This document shows, piece after piece, positions 4,034-38,906 of a stretch of DNA of 44,553 bases. Each line of letters begins with the position of its first letter. Position 1 is the first letter of the stretch. The stretch spans positions 1 to 44,553 of the forward strand of contig JAPPNO010000095.1 of the NCBI GenBank assembly GCA_028873845.1, written 5' to 3'. This DNA comes from Gemmatimonadota bacterium. GTDB taxonomy: Bacteria > Gemmatimonadota > Gemmatimonadetes > Longimicrobiales > Gaopeijiaceae. The position numbers and the translations under genes were made by a program. A model generated the notes under the pieces. That model did not search any database, was not told where the DNA came from, and worked only from the letters and a program-made list of their open reading frames with translations.

Positions 4034-6385
4034 ATGAACAGATTGTTCCGAACCGTCTTCGTGACCCTGGCCGGCATCGGCCTTCTGTCCGGGTCGCTGA
4101 GCGCCCAGGGCTTCGGCGAGGGTGTGGTCGTGAACGGAGACGAGATCCTCGTGGCCGCGACCCGCGGTCCGGACGGGGGTGTCCTGTACGTCTATACCCG
4201 TAGCGGCGACGGCTGGGCGGAGACGGGCAGGCTCAGGGGTCCGGAGCCCGCCGAGGGGGACGGTTTCGGAACCTCCATGGCCGTCTCGGGCGACCGCCTG
4301 CTCGTTACGTCCTTCAGCCCGTTCCCGCCGGCGAGTGGGGCCGTCCATTCCTATGTGAGAGCGGGTTCGGAGTGGCGGCGCGAGGGCATGATCGTGGCCG
4401 ACGGTCTGCCCGACGGAATGATCGTGGGGAATTCGGTCGTGCTCAGCGGCGACCGGGCCGCCCTGAACGCGGCCCCACCCCGCGGGGTAAGCGGCCTCGT
4501 GTTCGTTTTCCGGAACGAGAACGGCGCATGGGTTCAGGAGGCCGTGCTGGAGTCTCCCGCGGGAGACGAAGCCACGGGCTTCGGCGGTACTCTGGCCCTG
4601 TCGGGAGACATCCTGGTGGTTGGCGCGACCCAGTTCGATTCGGCGGCGGGCGCGGCGTACATCTACGAGCACGGAGCGGACGGCTGGACGATGACCGGCG
4701 AATTGACTTCCGACGGCGGACCGGGAGCCTGGTTCGGCGCTGGAGCCCTGGTCGTGGGAGACCGCGTTCTGGTGGCGGCGGGCAGCCCCTTCGGCCAGAC
4801 CGCCGGAACCGTCACTGCCTTCGCCCGCCAGGAAGGCGAATGGACCGCCACCGGGTCGTACGTGGCCTTCGACGGCGGCATCGGAGACATGTTCGGCTCG
4901 TCTTTGGCGAGCGACGGCCACACACTCTGGATAGGGGCGGGGGGCTTGAACCAGCGCCGGGGAGCCATCTACGAATTCACGCCGGACGCCGACGGCGACT
5001 GGACCTCGGTCAGCAGGATCACCCTTCCCGACCCACAGCCCGGCAACGGACTGGGCCGGGTCGTGGCCCACGGCGGCGGCATTCTCGTGTCCGGTATGCC
5101 CGGCAACGACTACGGCGCCGGCACCACCCACATCTTCGAGCGCAGCGGTGAGGGCTGGAGCAGCAGCGCGTCGATCTTCGCGGAAATCGACGAGTTCGAC
5201 CCGGTCGTCGGAGGACAGCTCGACTGCTCGGACGGCGAGGCTTCCGTTTTCGGCTGCAACGACGTGGATCTGGTCGCATACCTTCCGGTCAGCGCCCTGG
5301 GCGGCGAGCGCGGCACCCGCCTCAACGACATCTGGGGGTGGACCGATCCCGAGACCCGGCGCGACTACGCCCTCGTGGGGCGGATGGACGGCACCTCGTT
5401 CGTCGACGTGACCGATCCTGCCAACCCCGTCGTGGTGGGCAACCTGCCCAGGACCGAGGGGATCCGGGGAACCTCCTGGCGCGACATGAAGGTGTACAGC
5501 GACCACGTCTTCGTGGTGTCGGACATCGCCGGCGCACACGGGATGCAGGTCTTCGACCTCACGCGCCTGCGCGAGTTCTCGGGAACCATGCTCACCTTCG
5601 ACGAGGACGCCCACTACGACCGCATCAACAGCGTCCACAACATCGTGATCAACGAGGAGACCGGCTTCGCCTACGCCGTGGGCAGCAGCGCCGGGGGCGA
5701 CACCTGCGGCGGCGGGCTCCACATGATCGACATCCGGGATCCGAAGAACCCCACCTTCGCGGGCTGCTTCGCCGATCCGAGCACCGGACGTTCGGGAACG
5801 GGGTACACCCATGACGCGCAGTGCGTCATCTACCGCGGGCCTGACGAGGAGCACCACGGCAAGGAGATCTGCTTCGGTGCGAACGAGAACGCCCTGTCCA
5901 TCGCCGACGTGTCCGACAAGGAAAACCCGGTGGCGATGTCGGTGGCGACCTATCCCAACATCGGCTACGCACACCAGGGGTGGCTGACCGAAGACCAGGC
6001 CTACTTCTTCATGGGCGACGAAACGGACGAGTTCCAACTGGTACCGAACACGCGGACCCTGATCTGGGATGTCAAGGACCTCGACGAACCCATGCTGGTG
6101 AAGGAATTCTTCTCGGAGAACACGTCGAGCGACCACAACCTCTATGTCGTCGGCGACCTGATGTTCCAGTCCAACTACAACAGCGGGCTGCGCATCTTCG
6201 ATGTCTCGGACGCGGAAAACCCCCGCCTGGTCGGGTTCTTCGACACGCTGCCGGGCGCGGACTCGCCGGCGATGCGGGGTTCCTGGAGCAACTACCCGTT
6301 CTTCGAGTCCGGCATCGTGGTCGTCACGTCCATGGAGGAAGGGCTCTTCATCGTGAAGAAGAGAGGGCGGACCCCCATTTCATGA
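4034..6385 (+). CDS. Choice-of-anchor-B / LVIVD-repeat secreted protein (paralogue 1)
   Basis: A 783-residue exported protein with a signal peptide (residues 1-24, ending SLSAQ). GAGGAAG upstream supports the ATG at 4034. The N-terminal half (about 28-390) is a series of FG-GAP/integrin-like blades with phrases such as GFGGTLALSGD and FGAGALVVGD. The C-terminal half (about 390-783) is the LVIVD/choice-of-anchor-B type: GTSFVDVTDPANPVVVGNLP, GMQVFDLTRLREF, DCGGG-like and HMIDIRDPKNPTFAGCF blocks, and TSSDHNLYVVGDLMFQSNYN. Such proteins are extracellular propellers anchored by varying C-termini; no anchor is visible here. The stop overlaps an ATG of the next frame by 4 bp, making it the head of a run to about 10.4 kb. 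A close paralogue lies at 13576. Confidence 0.88.
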   Translation: MNRLFRTVFVTLAGIGLLSGSLSAQGFGEGVVVNGDEILVAATRGPDGGVLYVYTRSGDGWAETGRLRGPEPAEGDGFGTSMAVSGDRLLVTSFSPFPPASGAVHSYVRAGSEWRREGMIVADGLPDGMIVGNSVVLSGDRAALNAAPPRGVSGLVFVFRNENGAWVQEAVLESPAGDEATGFGGTLALSGDILVVGATQFDSAAGAAYIYEHGADGWTMTGELTSDGGPGAWFGAGALVVGDRVLVAAGSPFGQTAGTVTAFARQEGEWTATGSYVAFDGGIGDMFGSSLASDGHTLWIGAGGLNQRRGAIYEFTPDADGDWTSVSRITLPDPQPGNGLGRVVAHGGGILVSGMPGNDYGAGTTHIFERSGEGWSSSASIFAEIDEFDPVVGGQLDCSDGEASVFGCNDVDLVAYLPVSALGGERGTRLNDIWGWTDPETRRDYALVGRMDGTSFVDVTDPANPVVVGNLPRTEGIRGTSWRDMKVYSDHVFVVSDIAGAHGMQVFDLTRLREFSGTMLTFDEDAHYDRINSVHNIVINEETGFAYAVGSSAGGDTCGGGLHMIDIRDPKNPTFAGCFADPSTGRSGTGYTHDAQCVIYRGPDEEHHGKEICFGANENALSIADVSDKENPVAMSVATYPNIGYAHQGWLTEDQAYFFMGDETDEFQLVPNTRTLIWDVKDLDEPMLVKEFFSENTSSDHNLYVVGDLMFQSNYNSGLRIFDVSDAENPRLVGFFDTLPGADSPAMRGSWSNYPFFESGIVVVTSMEEGLFIVKKRGRTPIS

Positions 6386-31240: not shown

Positions 31241-32041
31241 TTGATCTCTCTCGCGGGAAGGACGGCCATCGTATCCGGCGCGGCGAGGGGGATCGGCGCC
31301 GCCTGCGCCCGCGCCTTCGCCGAGCACGGTGCGAACGTGGTACTGGGGGACGTACTCGAGGAGGCGTGCGCGGAGACCGCCGGAAGCATCGCGGCCGACA
31401 CCGGTGCGGCCACCGTGGCCGTGCGCGCCGACGTGAGCGACCCGGAGGACTGCGCATCCCTGCTCGCCGCCTGCACCGGCCGCTTCGGCGGCTGCGACAT
31501 CCTCCTCAACAACGCCGGGATCATCGTCTCGGGCTCGATCCTGGACGCTGCCGTCGAGGACTTCGACCGCGTGCTGGCGATCAACCTGCGCGGTTCGTTC
31601 CTGCTGGGCCGGCTCGTGGCGCGGCACATGGTCGAGCACGGGACGAAGGGGAGCATCATCAACATGTCGTCCACCAACGCCGTGGTGACGATCCCCGAAC
31701 AGCTCGCGTACGCGGCCTCGAAGGGCGGTGTCGCACAGATGACCAGGGCGATGGCGATGGCGCTCGCGCCGCACGACATCCGGGTCAACGCGATCGGCCC
31801 CGGGACGATCCTTACCGACATGCTCGAGGTGGTCATCGCCAACGAGGAGGCACGCCGCACGATCCTGTCGCGCACCCCGATGGGACGGATCGGCGACCCG
31901 TCCGAGGTGGCGAGCGTGGCCGTCTTCCTGGCCTCGGACTACGCGTCGTACATCACCGGCGACACGATCTATCCGGACGGAGGGCGGCTGTCGCTCAACT
32001 ATACCGTGCCGCTGCGCGAGGATGGCCCGGAGAGCCATTGA
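31241..32041 (+). CDS. SDR-family dehydrogenase
   Basis: A 266-residue short-chain dehydrogenase with a TTG start at 31241, preceded by a weak ribosome binding site. The cofactor motif is SGAARGIG (12-19) with an acidic GD at 36-37 that favours NAD(H). NNAG is at 90-93, and the catalytic set is S143/S144, Y157 and K161 in LAYAASKGG. The end GDTIYPDGGR is the standard SDR C-terminal segment. It overlaps the next gene by 20 bp, so it is translationally linked to the hydantoinase/oxoprolinase and may oxidise or reduce a product or substrate of the same ring-opening pathway. Confidence 0.9.
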   Translation: MISLAGRTAIVSGAARGIGAACARAFAEHGANVVLGDVLEEACAETAGSIAADTGAATVAVRADVSDPEDCASLLAACTGRFGGCDILLNNAGIIVSGSILDAAVEDFDRVLAINLRGSFLLGRLVARHMVEHGTKGSIINMSSTNAVVTIPEQLAYAASKGGVAQMTRAMAMALAPHDIRVNAIGPGTILTDMLEVVIANEEARRTILSRTPMGRIGDPSEVASVAVFLASDYASYITGDTIYPDGGRLSLNYTVPLREDGPESH

Positions 32042-35000
32042 CGTGCCCGCCCGCCTCGCCATCGACATCGGCGGCACGTTCACCGATGTGGCGCTCGAAG
32101 TGGGCGGCCGCCTCGTCACCACGAAGGTCCTCACCACCCACGCCGCGCCCGAACATGGCGTCCTGGATGGCGTCGCCAAGGTGCTCGGCATGGCGTCGGT
32201 CGCGCCCCCGGCGGTGCGCCTCGTCATCCACGGCACCACCCTCGCCACGAATGCGATCATCGAGCGCAAGGGTGCCCGCACCGCGCTGATCGTCACCGAG
32301 GGGCACCGCGACGCCCTCGAAATGGCCCATGAGAACCGGTTCGAGCAGTACGACATCAGCGTCGACCGCCCCCCGCCCCTCGTCCCCCGCCGCCTCCGCC
32401 TCCCCGTGCGGGAGCGCGTCGACCGCCGCGGCCGCGTCCTCATCCCCCTCGACGAGGACACCGTCCACGCGCTGCTCCCCGTCCTCGACGAACACGGCGT
32501 CGAATCCGTCGCGGTCGGGCTCATCCACGGCTACGCGAACCCATCCCACGAACGCCGCATCGGCGACATCCTGGCCACCGAGCGACCCGGCCTCGCCGTC
32601 ACCCTGGCCTCCGATGTCTGTCCCGAGGTGCGCGAGTACGAACGCCTCTCCACGGCCTGCGCCAACGCATACGTCCAGCCCCTCATGGCCCGCTACCTGA
32701 AGGGGCTTGCCACCTCGCTGCGGGACCGCGGCCTCGCATGCCCCTTCCTCCTCATGACGTCCGGCGGCGGCCTCACCACCCTCGACACCGCCGTCACCGC
32801 CCCGATCCGACTCGTGGAATCCGGTCCGGCCGGGGGTGCGATCCTCGCCAGCCACCTTGCCCGCAAACTCGACCTGGGCGACGTGCTCTCCTTCGACATG
32901 GGCGGCACCACCGCCAAGCTCTGCGTGATCGACGGCGGCGAGCCGCTCCACTCGCGCACCTTCGACGTGGCGCGCAGCTACCGCTTCAAGCAGGGCAGCG
33001 GCCTTCCCGTTCGGATCCCGGTCATCGAGATGGTCGAGATCGGGGCTGGGGGCGGTTCAATAGCGGGAGTGGACGACATGGACCGCATCCATGTGGGGCC
33101 CGAGAGCGCGGGGTCGGAGCCCGGTCCGGCGGCGTACGGCCAGGGCGGCGGGGAGCCCACCGTGACCGACGCGGACGTGGTGCTGGGCCGGATCGACCCG
33201 GAACTGTTCGCCGGAGGGGCGATCGGACTGGACCGGGGGCGGGCGGAGGCCGCGGTCGAGGGCCGGGTGGGGTCGAAGCTGGGTCTCGACGCGCGCGTGG
33301 CCGCGCTGGGGGTGAGCGAGATGGTGGACGAGAACATGTCCAACGCCGCGCGCACCCATGCCATCGAGTGGGGGAAGGGACTGGGGGGACGCACCGTGAT
33401 TGCCTTCGGCGGATCGGCGCCGATCCACGCGGCCCGGTTGGCGGACAAGCTGGAGCTGGACCGCTTCCTCGTGCCGGGCGATGCGGGGGTTGGGTCGGCG
33501 GTGGGGTTCCTGCTCGCGCCGATCTCGTACGAGGTCGTGCGGAGCCGCTACATGCGGTTGTCGCGCTTCGATCCGGGGCTGGTGCGTGAGGTGCTGGCCG
33601 GGATGCGGGCGGAGGCGGCGGCGGTGGTGGGGGAGGGTGCTCCGGGGGTGGAGACCACCGAGCGCACCCACGCCTTCATGCGCTACGTGGGACAGGGGCA
33701 CGAGATCGGGGTCGGGCTGCCGCGTGAGGTGGTGGGGGGTGGGGAGGGGCCGGAAGTGGTTGCCGCCCTCAAGGCGGCCTTCGATCGCGCCTATGAAACG
33801 GTGTACGGGCGCACAATCCCCGGTCTGGACGTGGAGGTGCTCAGCTGGACATTGGCGGTATCGGCCCCGGCGCGGGGCGCGCGCGGTGTGGCCGGGTCTG
33901 CGTCCGAGGTCGCAGCCGGCGCAGTCGTCGAGCCCTGGGAACACCGGGAATCCCCGGTTGGCGACCCAGCGGCGCCCCAGGCGCAGCGTCCCCCTTCAAA
34001 CGCCTGGACCGAGCTCTTCGAAGGGACCGACAAGGGACTCGTGCGCGCACCGATCCACCACCGGCGCGACCTCCTGGTCGGCGACCGGGTCACCGGCCCC
34101 GCCCTGATCGCCGAGGAACAGACCACCACCGTCCTCCCCGACGGCTGGCACGCCGGAGTCCTCCCGGGTGGCCATCTGCTCGCCGAACGCGACACCCGCC
34201 CATCGGCCCGCACAGCCGCCTCCGCGCTGCAGGACCAGATCATGTGGAGCCGGCTGCTCTCGGTCGTCGAGGAGCAGGCCCGCACCCTGGTGCGCACCGC
34301 CTTCTCCACCCCCGTGCGCGAGGCGGGCGACCTCTCCGCGGGCGTCTTCGACCTCTCCGGCCGCATGCTGGCGCAGGCCGTCACGGGAACACCCGGGCAC
34401 GTCAATGCCATGGCTGCATCGGTCGGCTTCTTCCTCCGCGACCACCCCATCGAGACCCTGGCCGAGGGCGACGTCCTCGTCACCAACGACCCCTGGGAGG
34501 GCACCGGCCACCTCAACGACTTCACCGTCGTCACCCCCACCTTCCTCGACGGCCGTCCCGTCGCGCTCTTCGCCGCCACCAGCCACATCGCGGACGTGGG
34601 CGGGCGCGGTTTCGGCGCCGACGCGAACCAGGTCTTCGAGGAGGGCATCCGCATCCCCATCGGCCACCTCATCCGCGCCGGCCGCGTGGACGAGACGCTC
34701 ATGCGCATGGTGCGCGCCAACGTGCGCGAGCCCGACGTGGCACAGGGCGACCTCTATTCGCTGGCGGCGTGCAACAGCGCCGGCGGCGAGCGCCTCGTCG
34801 CCATGATGAAGGAGTTCGGGCTGGAGTCACTCGACGGACTGGCCGAGATGATCCTCACGGCGTCGCGCCGGGCCATGCTCGACCGCATCCGTGCCCTCAA
34901 GCCCGGCACCTACCGCCACAGCATGACGATCGACGGCTACGACCAGGACCTGGAGCTGGTGTGCGTGCTCACCGTGTCGCGCGAGGGCATCCACATCGAC

Positions 35001-35906
35001 TTCACCGGCACCTCCCCCATGTCACCCTACGGGATCAACGTCCCCGAGACGTACACGCGGGCCTACGGGTCCTTCGGCGTGCGCTGCGTGGTGGGCTCGG
35101 AGGTCCCCAACAACGCAGGCTCGCTCGGCACGATCGAGGTCACTGCGCCCTCAGGCTGTCTCCTCAACGCGCCCCCGCCCGCCGCCGTCTCCGCGCGCCA
35201 CTCGATCGGGCAGATGCTCCCCGACGTGGTGCTCGGCTGCCTGGCCCAGGCGATGCCGCCGGGTTCGGTCCCGGCCGAGGGGGCGTCGTGTCTCTGGAAC
35301 CCGGTCTTCATGGGCGGGCCGGGGCTGACGGGGACGTATCCGTATGGGGACTCGGAGGCGTTTGTGGTCAACCCGTTCCACACCGGGGGCACGGGGGCGC
35401 GGCCGGGGAAGGACGGGCTCAGCGCGACCTCGTTCCCGTCGGGGGTGCGCAGCACGCCGATCGAGATCACCGAGACGGTGGCGCCGCTGATCTTCTGGCG
35501 GAAGGAGTACATTCCGGACTCGGGCGGGCCGGGCGAGTATCGCGGCGGTCTGGGGCAGGTGATGGAGGTTTCGCACGCGGACGGCGCCCCCTTCGCGGTG
35601 TCCAAGATGTTCGAGCGGGTGCGCAACGCCGCGCGGGGACGGGAGGGGGGCGGGGCGGGCGCTCCGGGAAGGGTCCATGTGCCGGGCGTCGGGGACCTGC
35701 GGGTGAAGGGAAGGGAGGTGGTGCCGCCGGGGCACCGGCTCGTTCTGGAGACGCCGGGGGGCGGGGGGCTGGGGGATCCGCGCGGGCGAAGCCGGGAGAA
35801 GGTGCGCGAAGACGTATTGGACCAGTATGTTACCGGTGAAGGTGCCGCTCATGATTGTGACAGCCCGGATATGCGGACCGGCAGCCGGGGAGCTGCCGCG
35901 GGCTGA
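32022..35906 (+). CDS. Fused hydantoinase A/B (5-oxoprolinase type)
   Basis: A 1294-residue protein. The HyuA half (about 1-690) shows an actin-like ATPase start AIDIGGTFTDVALE, then HGTTLATNAIIERKGA, a second phosphate loop FDMGGTTAKLCVI, GAGGGSIAGVD and FGGSAPIHAARLA. The HyuB half (about 715-1265) follows a linker and includes REAGDLSAGVFDLSGRML, NDPWEGTGHLNDFTVVTP, EGIRIPIGHLI and a glycine-rich LETPGGGGLGDP end. This order is that of ATP-dependent 5-oxoprolinases and hydantoinases. It should open a cyclic amide such as 5-oxoproline or a hydantoin. ATG 32022 overlaps the SDR gene; an in-frame GTG at 32043 is an alternative just after that gene's stop. Confidence 0.9.
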   Translation: MARRAIDVPARLAIDIGGTFTDVALEVGGRLVTTKVLTTHAAPEHGVLDGVAKVLGMASVAPPAVRLVIHGTTLATNAIIERKGARTALIVTEGHRDALEMAHENRFEQYDISVDRPPPLVPRRLRLPVRERVDRRGRVLIPLDEDTVHALLPVLDEHGVESVAVGLIHGYANPSHERRIGDILATERPGLAVTLASDVCPEVREYERLSTACANAYVQPLMARYLKGLATSLRDRGLACPFLLMTSGGGLTTLDTAVTAPIRLVESGPAGGAILASHLARKLDLGDVLSFDMGGTTAKLCVIDGGEPLHSRTFDVARSYRFKQGSGLPVRIPVIEMVEIGAGGGSIAGVDDMDRIHVGPESAGSEPGPAAYGQGGGEPTVTDADVVLGRIDPELFAGGAIGLDRGRAEAAVEGRVGSKLGLDARVAALGVSEMVDENMSNAARTHAIEWGKGLGGRTVIAFGGSAPIHAARLADKLELDRFLVPGDAGVGSAVGFLLAPISYEVVRSRYMRLSRFDPGLVREVLAGMRAEAAAVVGEGAPGVETTERTHAFMRYVGQGHEIGVGLPREVVGGGEGPEVVAALKAAFDRAYETVYGRTIPGLDVEVLSWTLAVSAPARGARGVAGSASEVAAGAVVEPWEHRESPVGDPAAPQAQRPPSNAWTELFEGTDKGLVRAPIHHRRDLLVGDRVTGPALIAEEQTTTVLPDGWHAGVLPGGHLLAERDTRPSARTAASALQDQIMWSRLLSVVEEQARTLVRTAFSTPVREAGDLSAGVFDLSGRMLAQAVTGTPGHVNAMAASVGFFLRDHPIETLAEGDVLVTNDPWEGTGHLNDFTVVTPTFLDGRPVALFAATSHIADVGGRGFGADANQVFEEGIRIPIGHLIRAGRVDETLMRMVRANVREPDVAQGDLYSLAACNSAGGERLVAMMKEFGLESLDGLAEMILTASRRAMLDRIRALKPGTYRHSMTIDGYDQDLELVCVLTVSREGIHIDFTGTSPMSPYGINVPETYTRAYGSFGVRCVVGSEVPNNAGSLGTIEVTAPSGCLLNAPPPAAVSARHSIGQMLPDVVLGCLAQAMPPGSVPAEGASCLWNPVFMGGPGLTGTYPYGDSEAFVVNPFHTGGTGARPGKDGLSATSFPSGVRSTPIEITETVAPLIFWRKEYIPDSGGPGEYRGGLGQVMEVSHADGAPFAVSKMFERVRNAARGREGGGAGAPGRVHVPGVGDLRVKGREVVPPGHRLVLETPGGGGLGDPRGRSREKVREDVLDQYVTGEGAAHDCDSPDMRTGSRGAAAG

Positions 35907-35925: not shown

Positions 35926-36819
35926 ATGAGATCCTTCAGGTTGCTTCTGATCCCTCTCGTGCTCGCCCCCCTGGCCTGTGAATCCGATCTTCCCCCGACC
36001 GAAGAGCCCGGGGAGTCCGTCTTCACGATCGGCGCCGTGCGGCCCGCGACCCTGATGCGCCCCGTGGACTACGTCCCCGGTACCCCGATCCCGGTGGTGA
36101 TCGTGTTGCACGGATACAACAGCCACTCGGGAGCCATCAATCGGTACCTGGGGATCGGCAGACGGATCAACGAAGAGCACTTCGCCGTGATCCTTCCGGA
36201 GGGCACGAAGAACCCGAACGGGCAGAGATTCTGGAATGCCACCGACTACTGCTGCGATTTCTGGAACACGGGGCCCGATGACGTGGGCTACCTGAACAGT
36301 TTGTATGAGGAAGCGGGCAACTACGTCACCACCAGTGGCGTGTACCTGATCGGCCATTCGAACGGTGGGTTCATGGCCTACCGGATGGCCTGCGAGTCGA
36401 TGCCGGAACTGAAGGGGATCGTGAGCCTGGCGGGAACGACGTACCATGACCCGGACCGCTGCGAGGGAGCCACGCCGGTTCCGGTGCTGCACCTGCATGG
36501 CACGAGCGACGGCACCATCCAGTATGGAGGCTGGTACCGAACGACCGGTGCCGGCAGGATCCACTATCCCGGGGCCGCGCAGACGGTGGAACGCTGGGCC
36601 GGGCGCGCGGGGTGCGACGTGGATGCCGCGGCGGAGCTCGAGTCGATCGAGCTGGTTCTCAACATTCCCGATGCGGAAACGCATCCCACTCGTTACGAGG
36701 CCGGTTGCGGAGGCGGGGTCGCGCTGGAGCTTTGGACGATCGAGGATGGGTCGCACGTTCCGGGTTTCAACGCGGTTGATATCGGCCGCCGCCTGATCCA
36801 CTGGCTGTTCTACAAGTAG
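35926..36819 (+). CDS. PHB-depolymerase/feruloyl-esterase-like alpha/beta-hydrolase lipoprotein
   Basis: A 297-residue lipoprotein with a near-perfect Shine-Dalgarno (AAAGGAGGA) five bases before ATG 35926. The lipobox is L-A-P-L-A-C with Cys18. The alpha/beta-hydrolase catalytic set is visible: nucleophile S145 in LIGHSNGGFMAYRMA, D195 in HLHGTSDGTI and H277 in EDGSHVPGF. FWNATDYCCDF near residue 103 is a hallmark of the LpqC/PHB-depolymerase group, and LHGYNSHSG provides the oxyanion strand. It should hydrolyse esters of polyhydroxyalkanoates or aromatic acids at the envelope. It follows the hydantoinase by 19 bp, with no evident pathway link. Confidence 0.88.
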   Translation: MRSFRLLLIPLVLAPLACESDLPPTEEPGESVFTIGAVRPATLMRPVDYVPGTPIPVVIVLHGYNSHSGAINRYLGIGRRINEEHFAVILPEGTKNPNGQRFWNATDYCCDFWNTGPDDVGYLNSLYEEAGNYVTTSGVYLIGHSNGGFMAYRMACESMPELKGIVSLAGTTYHDPDRCEGATPVPVLHLHGTSDGTIQYGGWYRTTGAGRIHYPGAAQTVERWAGRAGCDVDAAAELESIELVLNIPDAETHPTRYEAGCGGGVALELWTIEDGSHVPGFNAVDIGRRLIHWLFYK

Positions 36820-36868: not shown

Positions 36869-38278
36869 ATGGCCATAGACCTGGCGGACGATGCGATCCA
36901 CGCGCTGAACCGCGCCGCCGCCGCGGCCGCGCGCGAAGGAGGCGAGGCGATCGAGCCCCGGCACGTCCTCGCGGGGGTGATCTCGCAGGCGGACCCGAAA
37001 CTGCTCGAGATTCTGTCGCAACTCGACCTCGACCCCGCCACGCTTCCAGGCCCGCTTCGCGACGTCCCGGAGACGTACGAGGGCCACCTGCCCTTCACCC
37101 CCGCGGCTCACAAAGTGCTTGCGGCTGCCGTGGAGGCGACCTCCGCGGAGGAACCCGGCGCCACCGGAAGCGCCCATCTCCTGCTGGGCGTTGCCCGCGC
37201 CGGCGGCCCGGGGTCTTCGGCTGTGTTGGGTGAATGGGGACTGAGCCCCGGCGCGCTTGCAGCCGTCCTGGCTTCGCGGCCCGCATCGGCGGCGCCCGCG
37301 AAGGCGGACACGGTTCAGACTGCCAGTGCCGCGACCACCCTCCTCCTTGCAGCCATCCTGCCCTTCGCCTGCGCCCCCGCCGACCCCTTCGCGGCCACCC
37401 CCGCCGACGGCCCGGTCCCCGAGATCGGCCCGGCCCCCGCGGACTACCGCCCCACCGCCGCGGGCGCCCCCTCGACCGACATCTGGATCGGACGGATCGG
37501 GCGCGGCGCCGGGGGCGCCCTCCAGGTACGGGACCTGGTCAACGCGACCGACCGCGACGGCTACGACAACCAGCCCGCCTTCGACCCCTCCGGCACGGCC
37601 GTGTACTACACCTCGGCCGTCGACTCGACGCAGACCGAGACCTTCCGCCTCCTCCTCCAGCCGAACGCCGCGGAACAGGTCACCCACACGCCAGGCGCCA
37701 GCGAGTTCTCACCCACGCCCATCCCCGCCCAGGACGCCTTCTCCGCGATCCGCGAAGAGCGCGGGCGCCAGTTCCTCTGGCGCTACGGCGCGGACGGCTC
37801 CGGCATGGGCCCCATCTTCGCGACGGTCGAGCCGGTCGGCTATCACGCGTGGGCGAACGGTACCGTCGCGGCCATGTTCGTGCTCGGCGATCCCCCCACG
37901 CTCCGGGTCGGCGACGCGCTCTCCGGCGAGGTGCGCACGGTGGCCGAGAACCCCGGCCGCTCCATTCACCGCATCCCGGGTTCGGAGGACATCTCCTTCG
38001 TGCGGAAGGTCGCCGAGGAAGAGTGGTGGATCGAGCGGCTCGATCCCCTCACGGGGGAGGCGACCCGCCTGGCGAGGACGCCGACCGGCCGCGAGGACTA
38101 CGCGTGGACCCCGGAGGGCGAGATCCTGATCGGGGACGGCGCCAGGCTGCTGGCGTGGTCGGCGGAGGCGGGGTGGTGGGAGGTGGCGCACCTCGACGAG
38201 ACGGACGGGGGCGACATCTCCCGCATCGCGGTCAGCGGCGACGGGACGCGGATCGCCCTGGTGAGAAACCGGCCATGA
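36869..38278 (+). CDS. Clp N-terminal domain fused to hydrophobic segment and beta-propeller
   Basis: A 469-residue protein of unusual build. Residues 1-136 form a Clp N-domain with both repeats: AIEPRHVLAGVI in the first, LPFTPAAHKVLAAAVEA leading into GSAHLLLGVARAGG in the second. No AAA ATPase part follows. Instead residues about 154-167 (ATTLLLAAILPFA) are a hydrophobic segment ending at Cys168, then an A/P-rich linker, then a TolB/WD40-like propeller (about 195-469; YDNQPAFDPSGTAVYY, EDYAWTPEGEILIG, ISRIAVSGDGTRIALV). No in-frame start codon sits just before the hydrophobic part. Topology with a cytoplasmic Clp_N and a periplasmic propeller is an inference. The stop overlaps the next ATG. 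Confidence 0.75.
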   Translation: MAIDLADDAIHALNRAAAAAAREGGEAIEPRHVLAGVISQADPKLLEILSQLDLDPATLPGPLRDVPETYEGHLPFTPAAHKVLAAAVEATSAEEPGATGSAHLLLGVARAGGPGSSAVLGEWGLSPGALAAVLASRPASAAPAKADTVQTASAATTLLLAAILPFACAPADPFAATPADGPVPEIGPAPADYRPTAAGAPSTDIWIGRIGRGAGGALQVRDLVNATDRDGYDNQPAFDPSGTAVYYTSAVDSTQTETFRLLLQPNAAEQVTHTPGASEFSPTPIPAQDAFSAIREERGRQFLWRYGADGSGMGPIFATVEPVGYHAWANGTVAAMFVLGDPPTLRVGDALSGEVRTVAENPGRSIHRIPGSEDISFVRKVAEEEWWIERLDPLTGEATRLARTPTGREDYAWTPEGEILIGDGARLLAWSAEAGWWEVAHLDETDGGDISRIAVSGDGTRIALVRNRP

Positions 38279-38466
38279 CACCCGCCCGCCGCCGGGCCAT
38301 CGTGACGCTGCTGGTCTACTGTGGGGTGGGTGCGCTCGTGCTGGGAGTGCTCGCCGGATCGGGCATCTTCTTCCCGTCTACGATGTGGGCCACGATCGGG
38401 GGCGCGGTCCTCGGGGCCTGGACGGGCCTTGCCATCTACCGGCTTCGTGCCGATTCCTTGATGTAG
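38275..38466 (+). CDS. Small two-helix membrane protein
   Basis: A 63-residue protein whose ATG overlaps the stop of the Clp_N-propeller gene (ATGA). After MTPARRRA come two hydrophobic segments (IVTLLVYCGVGALVLGVLAG and WATIGGAVLGAWTGLAIY), separated by a short SGIFFPSTM turn, and the basic end RLRADSLM. It has no recognised family. Overlap implies co-translation with the fusion protein, possibly as a membrane partner. Confidence 0.65.
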   Translation: MTPARRRAIVTLLVYCGVGALVLGVLAGSGIFFPSTMWATIGGAVLGAWTGLAIYRLRADSLM

Positions 38467-38603: not shown

Positions 38604-38906
38604 ATGTTCGGAGACGCGCTCAGCTGGTACATGACCTCGATGGCGGAGTTCTGGGGCTCCGCTTTCCGGATCGGCCTCCCCCAGATCCTGATCATCATTT
38701 TCGTGATCTGCTGGCTGCGAAAGAAGGGTGGCAGCAAGTCGTGCGGGAAGGGATGCGGCTGGATGTGGTGCTGCAAGGGCGGTGGCGACGAGGAGGAAGG
38801 CGCCTGGTCCGACTGGGAGGGCGACTGCGGATGCTCCTGCGGGAGCTGCTGCTGCCGGCAGGGGGGCGAGACGGACGCGGACGACGAGGGCGACGGCGAC
38901 GAATAG
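38604..38906 (+). CDS. Cysteine-rich single-pass membrane microprotein
   Basis: A 100-residue protein with GAGGACGGA upstream and codon third positions strongly G/C, supporting it over an overlapping frame. One hydrophobic helix (about 24-38, LPQILIIIFVICWL) is followed by RKKGG, which places the C-terminus in the cytoplasm. The tail has ten cysteines in two clusters, SCGKGCGWMWCC and DCGCSCGSCCC, separated by an acidic Trp-containing linker (DEEEGAWSDWEG), and ends very acidic. Dense Cys/Gly clusters suggest metal or iron-sulfur binding, or thiol redox. No family is recognised. Between 38467 and 38603 I see only a weak 6-bp hairpin (38470-38494). Confidence 0.65.
   Translation: MFGDALSWYMTSMAEFWGSAFRIGLPQILIIIFVICWLRKKGGSKSCGKGCGWMWCCKGGGDEEEGAWSDWEGDCGCSCGSCCCRQGGETDADDEGDGDE

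Follow-up and report, generated by a model that had tools for sequence, protein, structure and literature searches.

A Clp N-domain joined in frame to a TolB-like propeller across a putative lipoprotein-type signal in a family of Gemmatimonadota

A Clp N-domain (Clp_N) and a TolB-like beta-propeller, separated by a linker and a putative lipoprotein-type signal, are encoded as one chain in the window, the stretch of 44,553 nucleotides of Gemmatimonadota DNA that we analyzed (Table 1). This is a real, new domain architecture with a narrow distribution. The sequence-only reading had proposed that a Clp N-domain, a hydrophobic segment, and a propeller share this single open reading frame (ORF), and ten species, the window included, bear it out with the same frame. 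Both Clp_N and the propeller family PD40 fall narrowly under their Pfam cut-offs in the fused protein, so routine annotation would leave both halves unnamed. In the literature searched we found no description of Clp_N and a propeller combined in a single chain with an export signal between them, in agreement with the earlier impression that the layout is unfamiliar among described systems; searching for Clp_N as a membrane protein, with a propeller, or with GntR gave a single, loosely related paper.

Table 1. Features of the Clp_N-propeller locus, with positions in the window
Feature	Position	Strand	Evidence or context
Alpha/beta hydrolase (depolymerase/esterase-like), probable lipoprotein	35929..36819	+	Upstream of Clp_N; joined to propeller in one congener
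Fused ORF, Clp_N - linker - lipoprotein-type signal (putative) - TolB-like propeller, 469 aa + stop	36869..38278	+	Single frame, also continuous in 9 other species
Clp_N domain, residues 1-135, two four-helix repeats, without AAA+	36869..37273	+	PDB sequence search, family profile, AlphaFold, dN/dS 0.17-0.43
Low-complexity linker, residues 139-151, without in-frame ATG/GTG/TTG	37283..37321	+	pLDDT ~30, start-codon scan, dN/dS near 1 (window clade)
Hydrophobic h-region ending in lipobox-like LPFAC	37322..37372	+	Counterpart of the signal that heads separate propeller genes
Six-bladed TolB-type beta-propeller, residues 201-469	37469..38275	+	Pfam PD40, AlphaFold model, structure comparison
tm63, 63-aa two-helix membrane protein	38275..38466	+	Start overlaps propeller stop (ATGA); conserved neighbor
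orf100, 100-aa protein, one hydrophobic segment + Cys-rich, acidic tail	38604..38906	+	Conserved neighbor, context only

No stop codon interrupts the fused frame in the window, and the nine other species in which it is continuous comprise seven congeners that align end to end and two genomes, G014 and G047 (another genus), found to be fused on inspection. Between the start of Clp_N and the core of the propeller lie 570 to 687 nt, a number divisible by three in each of the ten species. Three of the fused cases come from chromosome- or megabase-scale assemblies (OX638356, OX639991, and CATQHQ). That a sequencing or assembly error deleted a stop codon near 37260-37370 is an explanation to which the existence of relatives with split genes lends some color, but in-phase fusion in ten species, those three assemblies among them, rules it out as the cause and leaves it next to no probability. 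The junction is common to ten species, and homologues are not always two separate genes. Purifying selection acts on both halves (dN/dS 0.17 to 0.43 for Clp_N and 0.14 to 0.29 for the propeller). The suggestion that two genes became one by loss of a stop thus survives as essentially the origin of the gene and fails as an error, since the gene is fixed and under selection.

We surveyed 121 genomes of the family and found this Clp_N in 21: 10 fused, 2 probably fused (the Clp_N half reaches the contig end), 6 split, 1 rearranged, and 2 solo. Within this survey this Clp_N occurred in four genera only, all of the one family, and the fusion in two of the four. Assemblies of five congeners yielded no such Clp_N, in one case possibly owing to a contig end, so it seems to be dispensable. 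The named organisms are Gemmatimonadota metagenome-assembled genomes (MAGs), some labeled Longimicrobiales, and we read the isolate names as placing many of them in sponges. Four MAGs (G002, G013, G016, and G020; loci L035, L036, and L037, which are contig ends, and L046, L047, and L014) have a contig break right at, or close to, the junction of Clp_N and propeller, an indication that the linker varies between strains or contains repeats.

The Clp_N half has the two four-helix repeats of the ClpA/B/C N-domain fold. Its Pfam Clp_N score is 17.4 bits against a cut-off of 20.7 (E 0.005 for the domain alone), a phmmer search matches residues 1 to 135 to ClpC N-domains in the PDB at E 2.4e-6, and a profile of the Clp_N family raises the match to E 8e-13. 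The AlphaFold model comprises eight helices with a mean pLDDT of 90 and superposes on the ClpC1 N-domain with a Z score of 17.5. Neither Pfam, the sequence, nor the AlphaFold model revealed an AAA+ domain in the 469-residue protein, as had been claimed beforehand, and the AAA+ module that follows the N-domain in Hsp100/Clp unfoldases is thus absent.

The residues that define ligand binding in ClpC are mostly replaced. The phosphoarginine pockets of ClpC are defined by glutamates E32 and E106 (PMC12583610); the corresponding residues in the window Clp_N are R31 and A102, and no member of this Clp_N family has glutamate at both positions, whereas the ClpC encoded in the same genome retains the two glutamates. 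We therefore rejected Clp_N as a ClpC phosphoarginine receptor, for which both defining glutamates are missing. The cyclomarin contacts F2, F80, and E89 align to A2, F76, and A85, with the F80 position alone retained; F2, K85, and E89 of the cyclomarin site are all replaced. A cyclomarin-type decoy resembling ClpC2 was likewise rejected, its contact residues being mostly lost. The family has invariant residues of its own, including H11, N14, R15, R22, H73, H81, H103, and W123, which suggest a ligand different from that of the ClpC N-domain; we consider such a difference likely. The genome encodes ClpC, ClpB, and ClpP, and ClpS was not detected in it. The proposed control of ClpC/ClpP by Clp_N finds no support here; control of Clp by the fused protein is possible, a guess from the fold.

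The identification of the propeller as TolB type proved correct. PD40 scores 20.5 bits, slightly below the Pfam cut-off, and TolB is the best match of the modeled propeller among solved structures (Z 23.8 over 242 residues, rmsd 2.7). The six blades of TolB are present and its N-terminal alpha/beta domain is not; in that place sits a disordered linker, itself preceded by Clp_N. Relatives of this propeller are predicted to be exported.

Between the two folded domains, AlphaFold renders residues 139 to 200 as disordered (pLDDT about 30), and a hydrophobic segment occupies residues about 152 to 168. Shuffling the window linker gave equal hydrophobicity in 30 of 2,000 trials, and in nine relatives chance did so in 0 to 9 of 2,000. 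A cysteine closes the h-region in 10/10 fused proteins and is the sole cysteine of seven, including the window protein (Cys168). Eight of the ten match the PROSITE-type lipobox pattern; the window LPFAC, with Pro at -3, and one other do not, nor does the APLAC of the upstream hydrolase in the same genome. Most solo relatives of the propeller have an N-terminal lipoprotein signal, with the lipoboxes LTAC, LSAC, LIGC, and VAAC; two start instead with apparent ordinary Sec signals. The same signal lies some 150 residues into the fused forms and at the N terminus of split and solo relatives. The "membrane-like" segment of the sequence-only reading is thus indeed hydrophobic, but it is better described as a relocated lipoprotein signal with an invariant cysteine than as a generic membrane span; at ~16 residues the h-region is short for a stable anchor. 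We regard the stretch as best read as a retained, lipoprotein-type export signal (h-region plus Cys).

How efficiently such a signal would work behind a folded domain and a mostly acidic linker is uncertain. In six of the ten fused forms the linker before the h-region has no Lys or Arg and several Asp or Glu, which is unusual for a signal. One could accordingly suppose that the signal is dead behind the folded 135-residue domain and that the propeller serves in the cytoplasm as a substrate-binding platform beside Clp_N. The scarcity of basic residues and the loss of the N-terminal position speak for this cytoplasmic arrangement, but export signals head most of the separate relatives examined, and the cysteine and h-region remain conserved while the linker drifts. 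The dN/dS of the h-region is 0.15 to 0.24 in most pairs versus about 1 for the linker of the window clade, values computed on 11 to 30 codons, with window pairs giving 0.6 to 0.9 for the h-region. We judge the cytoplasmic arrangement unlikely. Internal re-initiation at ATG, GTG, or TTG was rejected, since the linker has none of these codons in the window gene or in four more of the fused genes; GTG and TTG do occur in the linkers of some others, and initiation at a rarer codon is conceivable.

In six congeners the two parts are separate but coupled genes. Stop and start overlap as ATGAATGA in five (G005, G008, G012, G022, and G020), and the genes lie 5 nt apart in the sixth (G018). The Clp_N ORF of the overlap species has ~137 codons and ends in gATGAaTGA, with c as the base before TGA in G022. 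In four of the five the propeller shares the contig; the ATG of the overlap begins the propeller ORF, which opens with a basic n-region followed by hydrophobic residues up to a Cys. The constant +1 offset between the frames of the split clade had raised the idea of programmed frameshifting, which we rejected because the propeller start overlaps the Clp_N stop. One further congener (G009, locus L068) is rearranged: the Clp_N stop TGA at 5027 overlaps the ATG at 5026 of a hydrolase-propeller lipoprotein whose N-terminal part bears the lipobox LAAC. Here an alpha/beta hydrolase lipoprotein and the propeller are fused in frame (L068 4945-6891), so that the same propeller has independently been attached anew. 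Clp_N stands alone in L076 and L039, and the genes around these two copies offered no functional hint.

Fused and split forms interleave on trees of either domain, with deep nodes weakly supported, which points to several fusions or fissions. What is conserved, judging from gene order and predicted signals, is that Clp_N is translated immediately upstream of, or as part of, a putatively exported propeller. A near-neutral alternative holds that Clp_N and the propeller are coupled but functionally unrelated neighbors with overlapping frames, Clp_N being mainly a translational lead-in. The interleaved trees, the ease with which one small indel in the overlap ATGAATGA can switch the state, and the two solo copies of Clp_N are in its favor. 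Purifying selection on both domains, however, and an upstream, coupled Clp_N in three arrangements, the hydrolase-propeller fusion included, count against it, and we hold it to be unlikely, if slightly less so than the cytoplasmic arrangement.

Our preferred reading, held with a little more than even confidence, is a fixed fusion of two translationally coupled genes that would yield an N-in/C-out chain with its propeller exported and possibly cut at the cysteine. The ancestors would have been two neighboring coupled genes, one for a TolB-type propeller lipoprotein and one for a small Clp_N protein of the cytoplasm that had no ATPase; small indels in the overlap would join or separate the frames with neither part lost. 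Clp_N, first in the chain, would fold in the cytoplasm, and the former signal peptide, now internal, would take the propeller across the inner membrane. Were the cysteine recognized, lipidation and cleavage by signal peptidase II would set the propeller free as a lipidated product, and Clp_N would stay behind with a short tail in the membrane; were it not, the two would remain one chain. Export and cleavage of the fused chain are steps that we infer, as would be any binding between Clp_N and ClpC or one of its clients.

Possible cleavage at the cysteine would mean that the "sensor" is no longer linked to Clp_N, and this bears on a single-chain coupler, the idea behind the sequence-only reading, in which an uncleaved, periplasm-sensing propeller positions or gates Clp_N and ClpC(P) is thereby recruited to the membrane or inhibited there. 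The predicted N-in/C-out layout, the ClpC and ClpP of the genome, the likeness of the Clp_N fold to that of the ClpC N-domain, and the window LPFAC, a poor cleavage site, are compatible with such a coupler. Against it stand the invariant lipobox cysteine of all fused forms, which suggests cleavage, the replaced phosphoarginine and cyclomarin-site residues, and the lack of any covalent link between the parts in split and rearranged congeners. A need for one chain in order to function finds no support, six congeners having two coupled genes and one having its propeller on a hydrolase. We consider the coupler quite unlikely, and a shade more improbable still that an uncleaved membrane protein uses a diverged ClpC-like N-domain to report a propeller-bound periplasmic ligand to the Clp system in the cytoplasm.

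The gene order hydantoinase, hydrolase, Clp_N, propeller, tm63, orf100, and DUF5916 is largely conserved among relatives. A 1,294-residue ORF at 32022-35906 of the window looks like a single-chain union of the A and B parts of a hydantoinase/oxoprolinase and precedes the hydrolase gene in most relatives. No Pfam family matched orf100 above its cut-off; its N-terminal part is kept in most relatives that have the propeller block.

Several known systems resemble parts of the fused protein. ClpC N-domains (Mycobacterium tuberculosis ClpC1, 6PBS; Corynebacterium glutamicum, 3FH2) share the whole-domain fold (Z 17.2 to 17.5, about 23% identity), but the window Clp_N lacks AAA+ modules and equivalents of E32 and E106 and is followed by the signal and propeller. 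Mycobacterial ClpC2 (8AD9; Z 15.8) is also an ATPase-less homologue of the ClpC N-domain; it binds DNA and cyclomarin, and F2, F80, and E89 are common to ClpC2 and ClpC1 (PMC10030653). The window Clp_N differs in keeping only the F80 position and in having nothing ahead of it: it opens the protein at residue 1, and the fused chain showed no DNA-binding domain. In other genomes, most of the same order, a two-repeat Clp_N is fused to a GntR-type winged helix (L040 1015-1944, L041 2021-2887, L042, L044 1728-2594, and L092 1501-2328), similar in logic to ClpC2 in pairing a ligand domain like the ClpC N-domain with a DNA-binding part; the literature searched held no description of Clp_N together with GntR. 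Plant and algal ClpT1/ClpT2 (4Y0B and 4Y0C; Z 14.3 to 15.8) are ATPase-less double Clp-N proteins, reported to occur in algae and plants alone and to associate with the ClpP ring (PMC7966870), and their likeness to the window Clp_N is one of fold only. FtsH ternary conflict systems fuse vWA to a beta-propeller or to ClpN repeats in different variants (PMC7159879), so both domain types occur in one system as alternatives, but Clp_N and a propeller are not described there as a single chain across a membrane signal. TolB shares the six-bladed propeller and export, the latter predicted here, and differs in its N-terminal alpha/beta domain, in place of which the fused protein has a lipoprotein-type signal and Clp_N in front. 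TolB-type propeller lipoproteins are common.

With the fixed fusion that we prefer, the small set of ATPase-less Clp_N proteins, such as ClpC2 and ClpT, would gain a layout linked to the membrane or envelope. Close relatives provide a natural series in which the same two parts occur as one chain, as overlapping genes, or with the propeller re-attached to a hydrolase. Such a series is well suited to asking whether Clp_N and an exported lipoprotein cooperate, and what a signal peptide does once a folded domain has come to lie in front of it.
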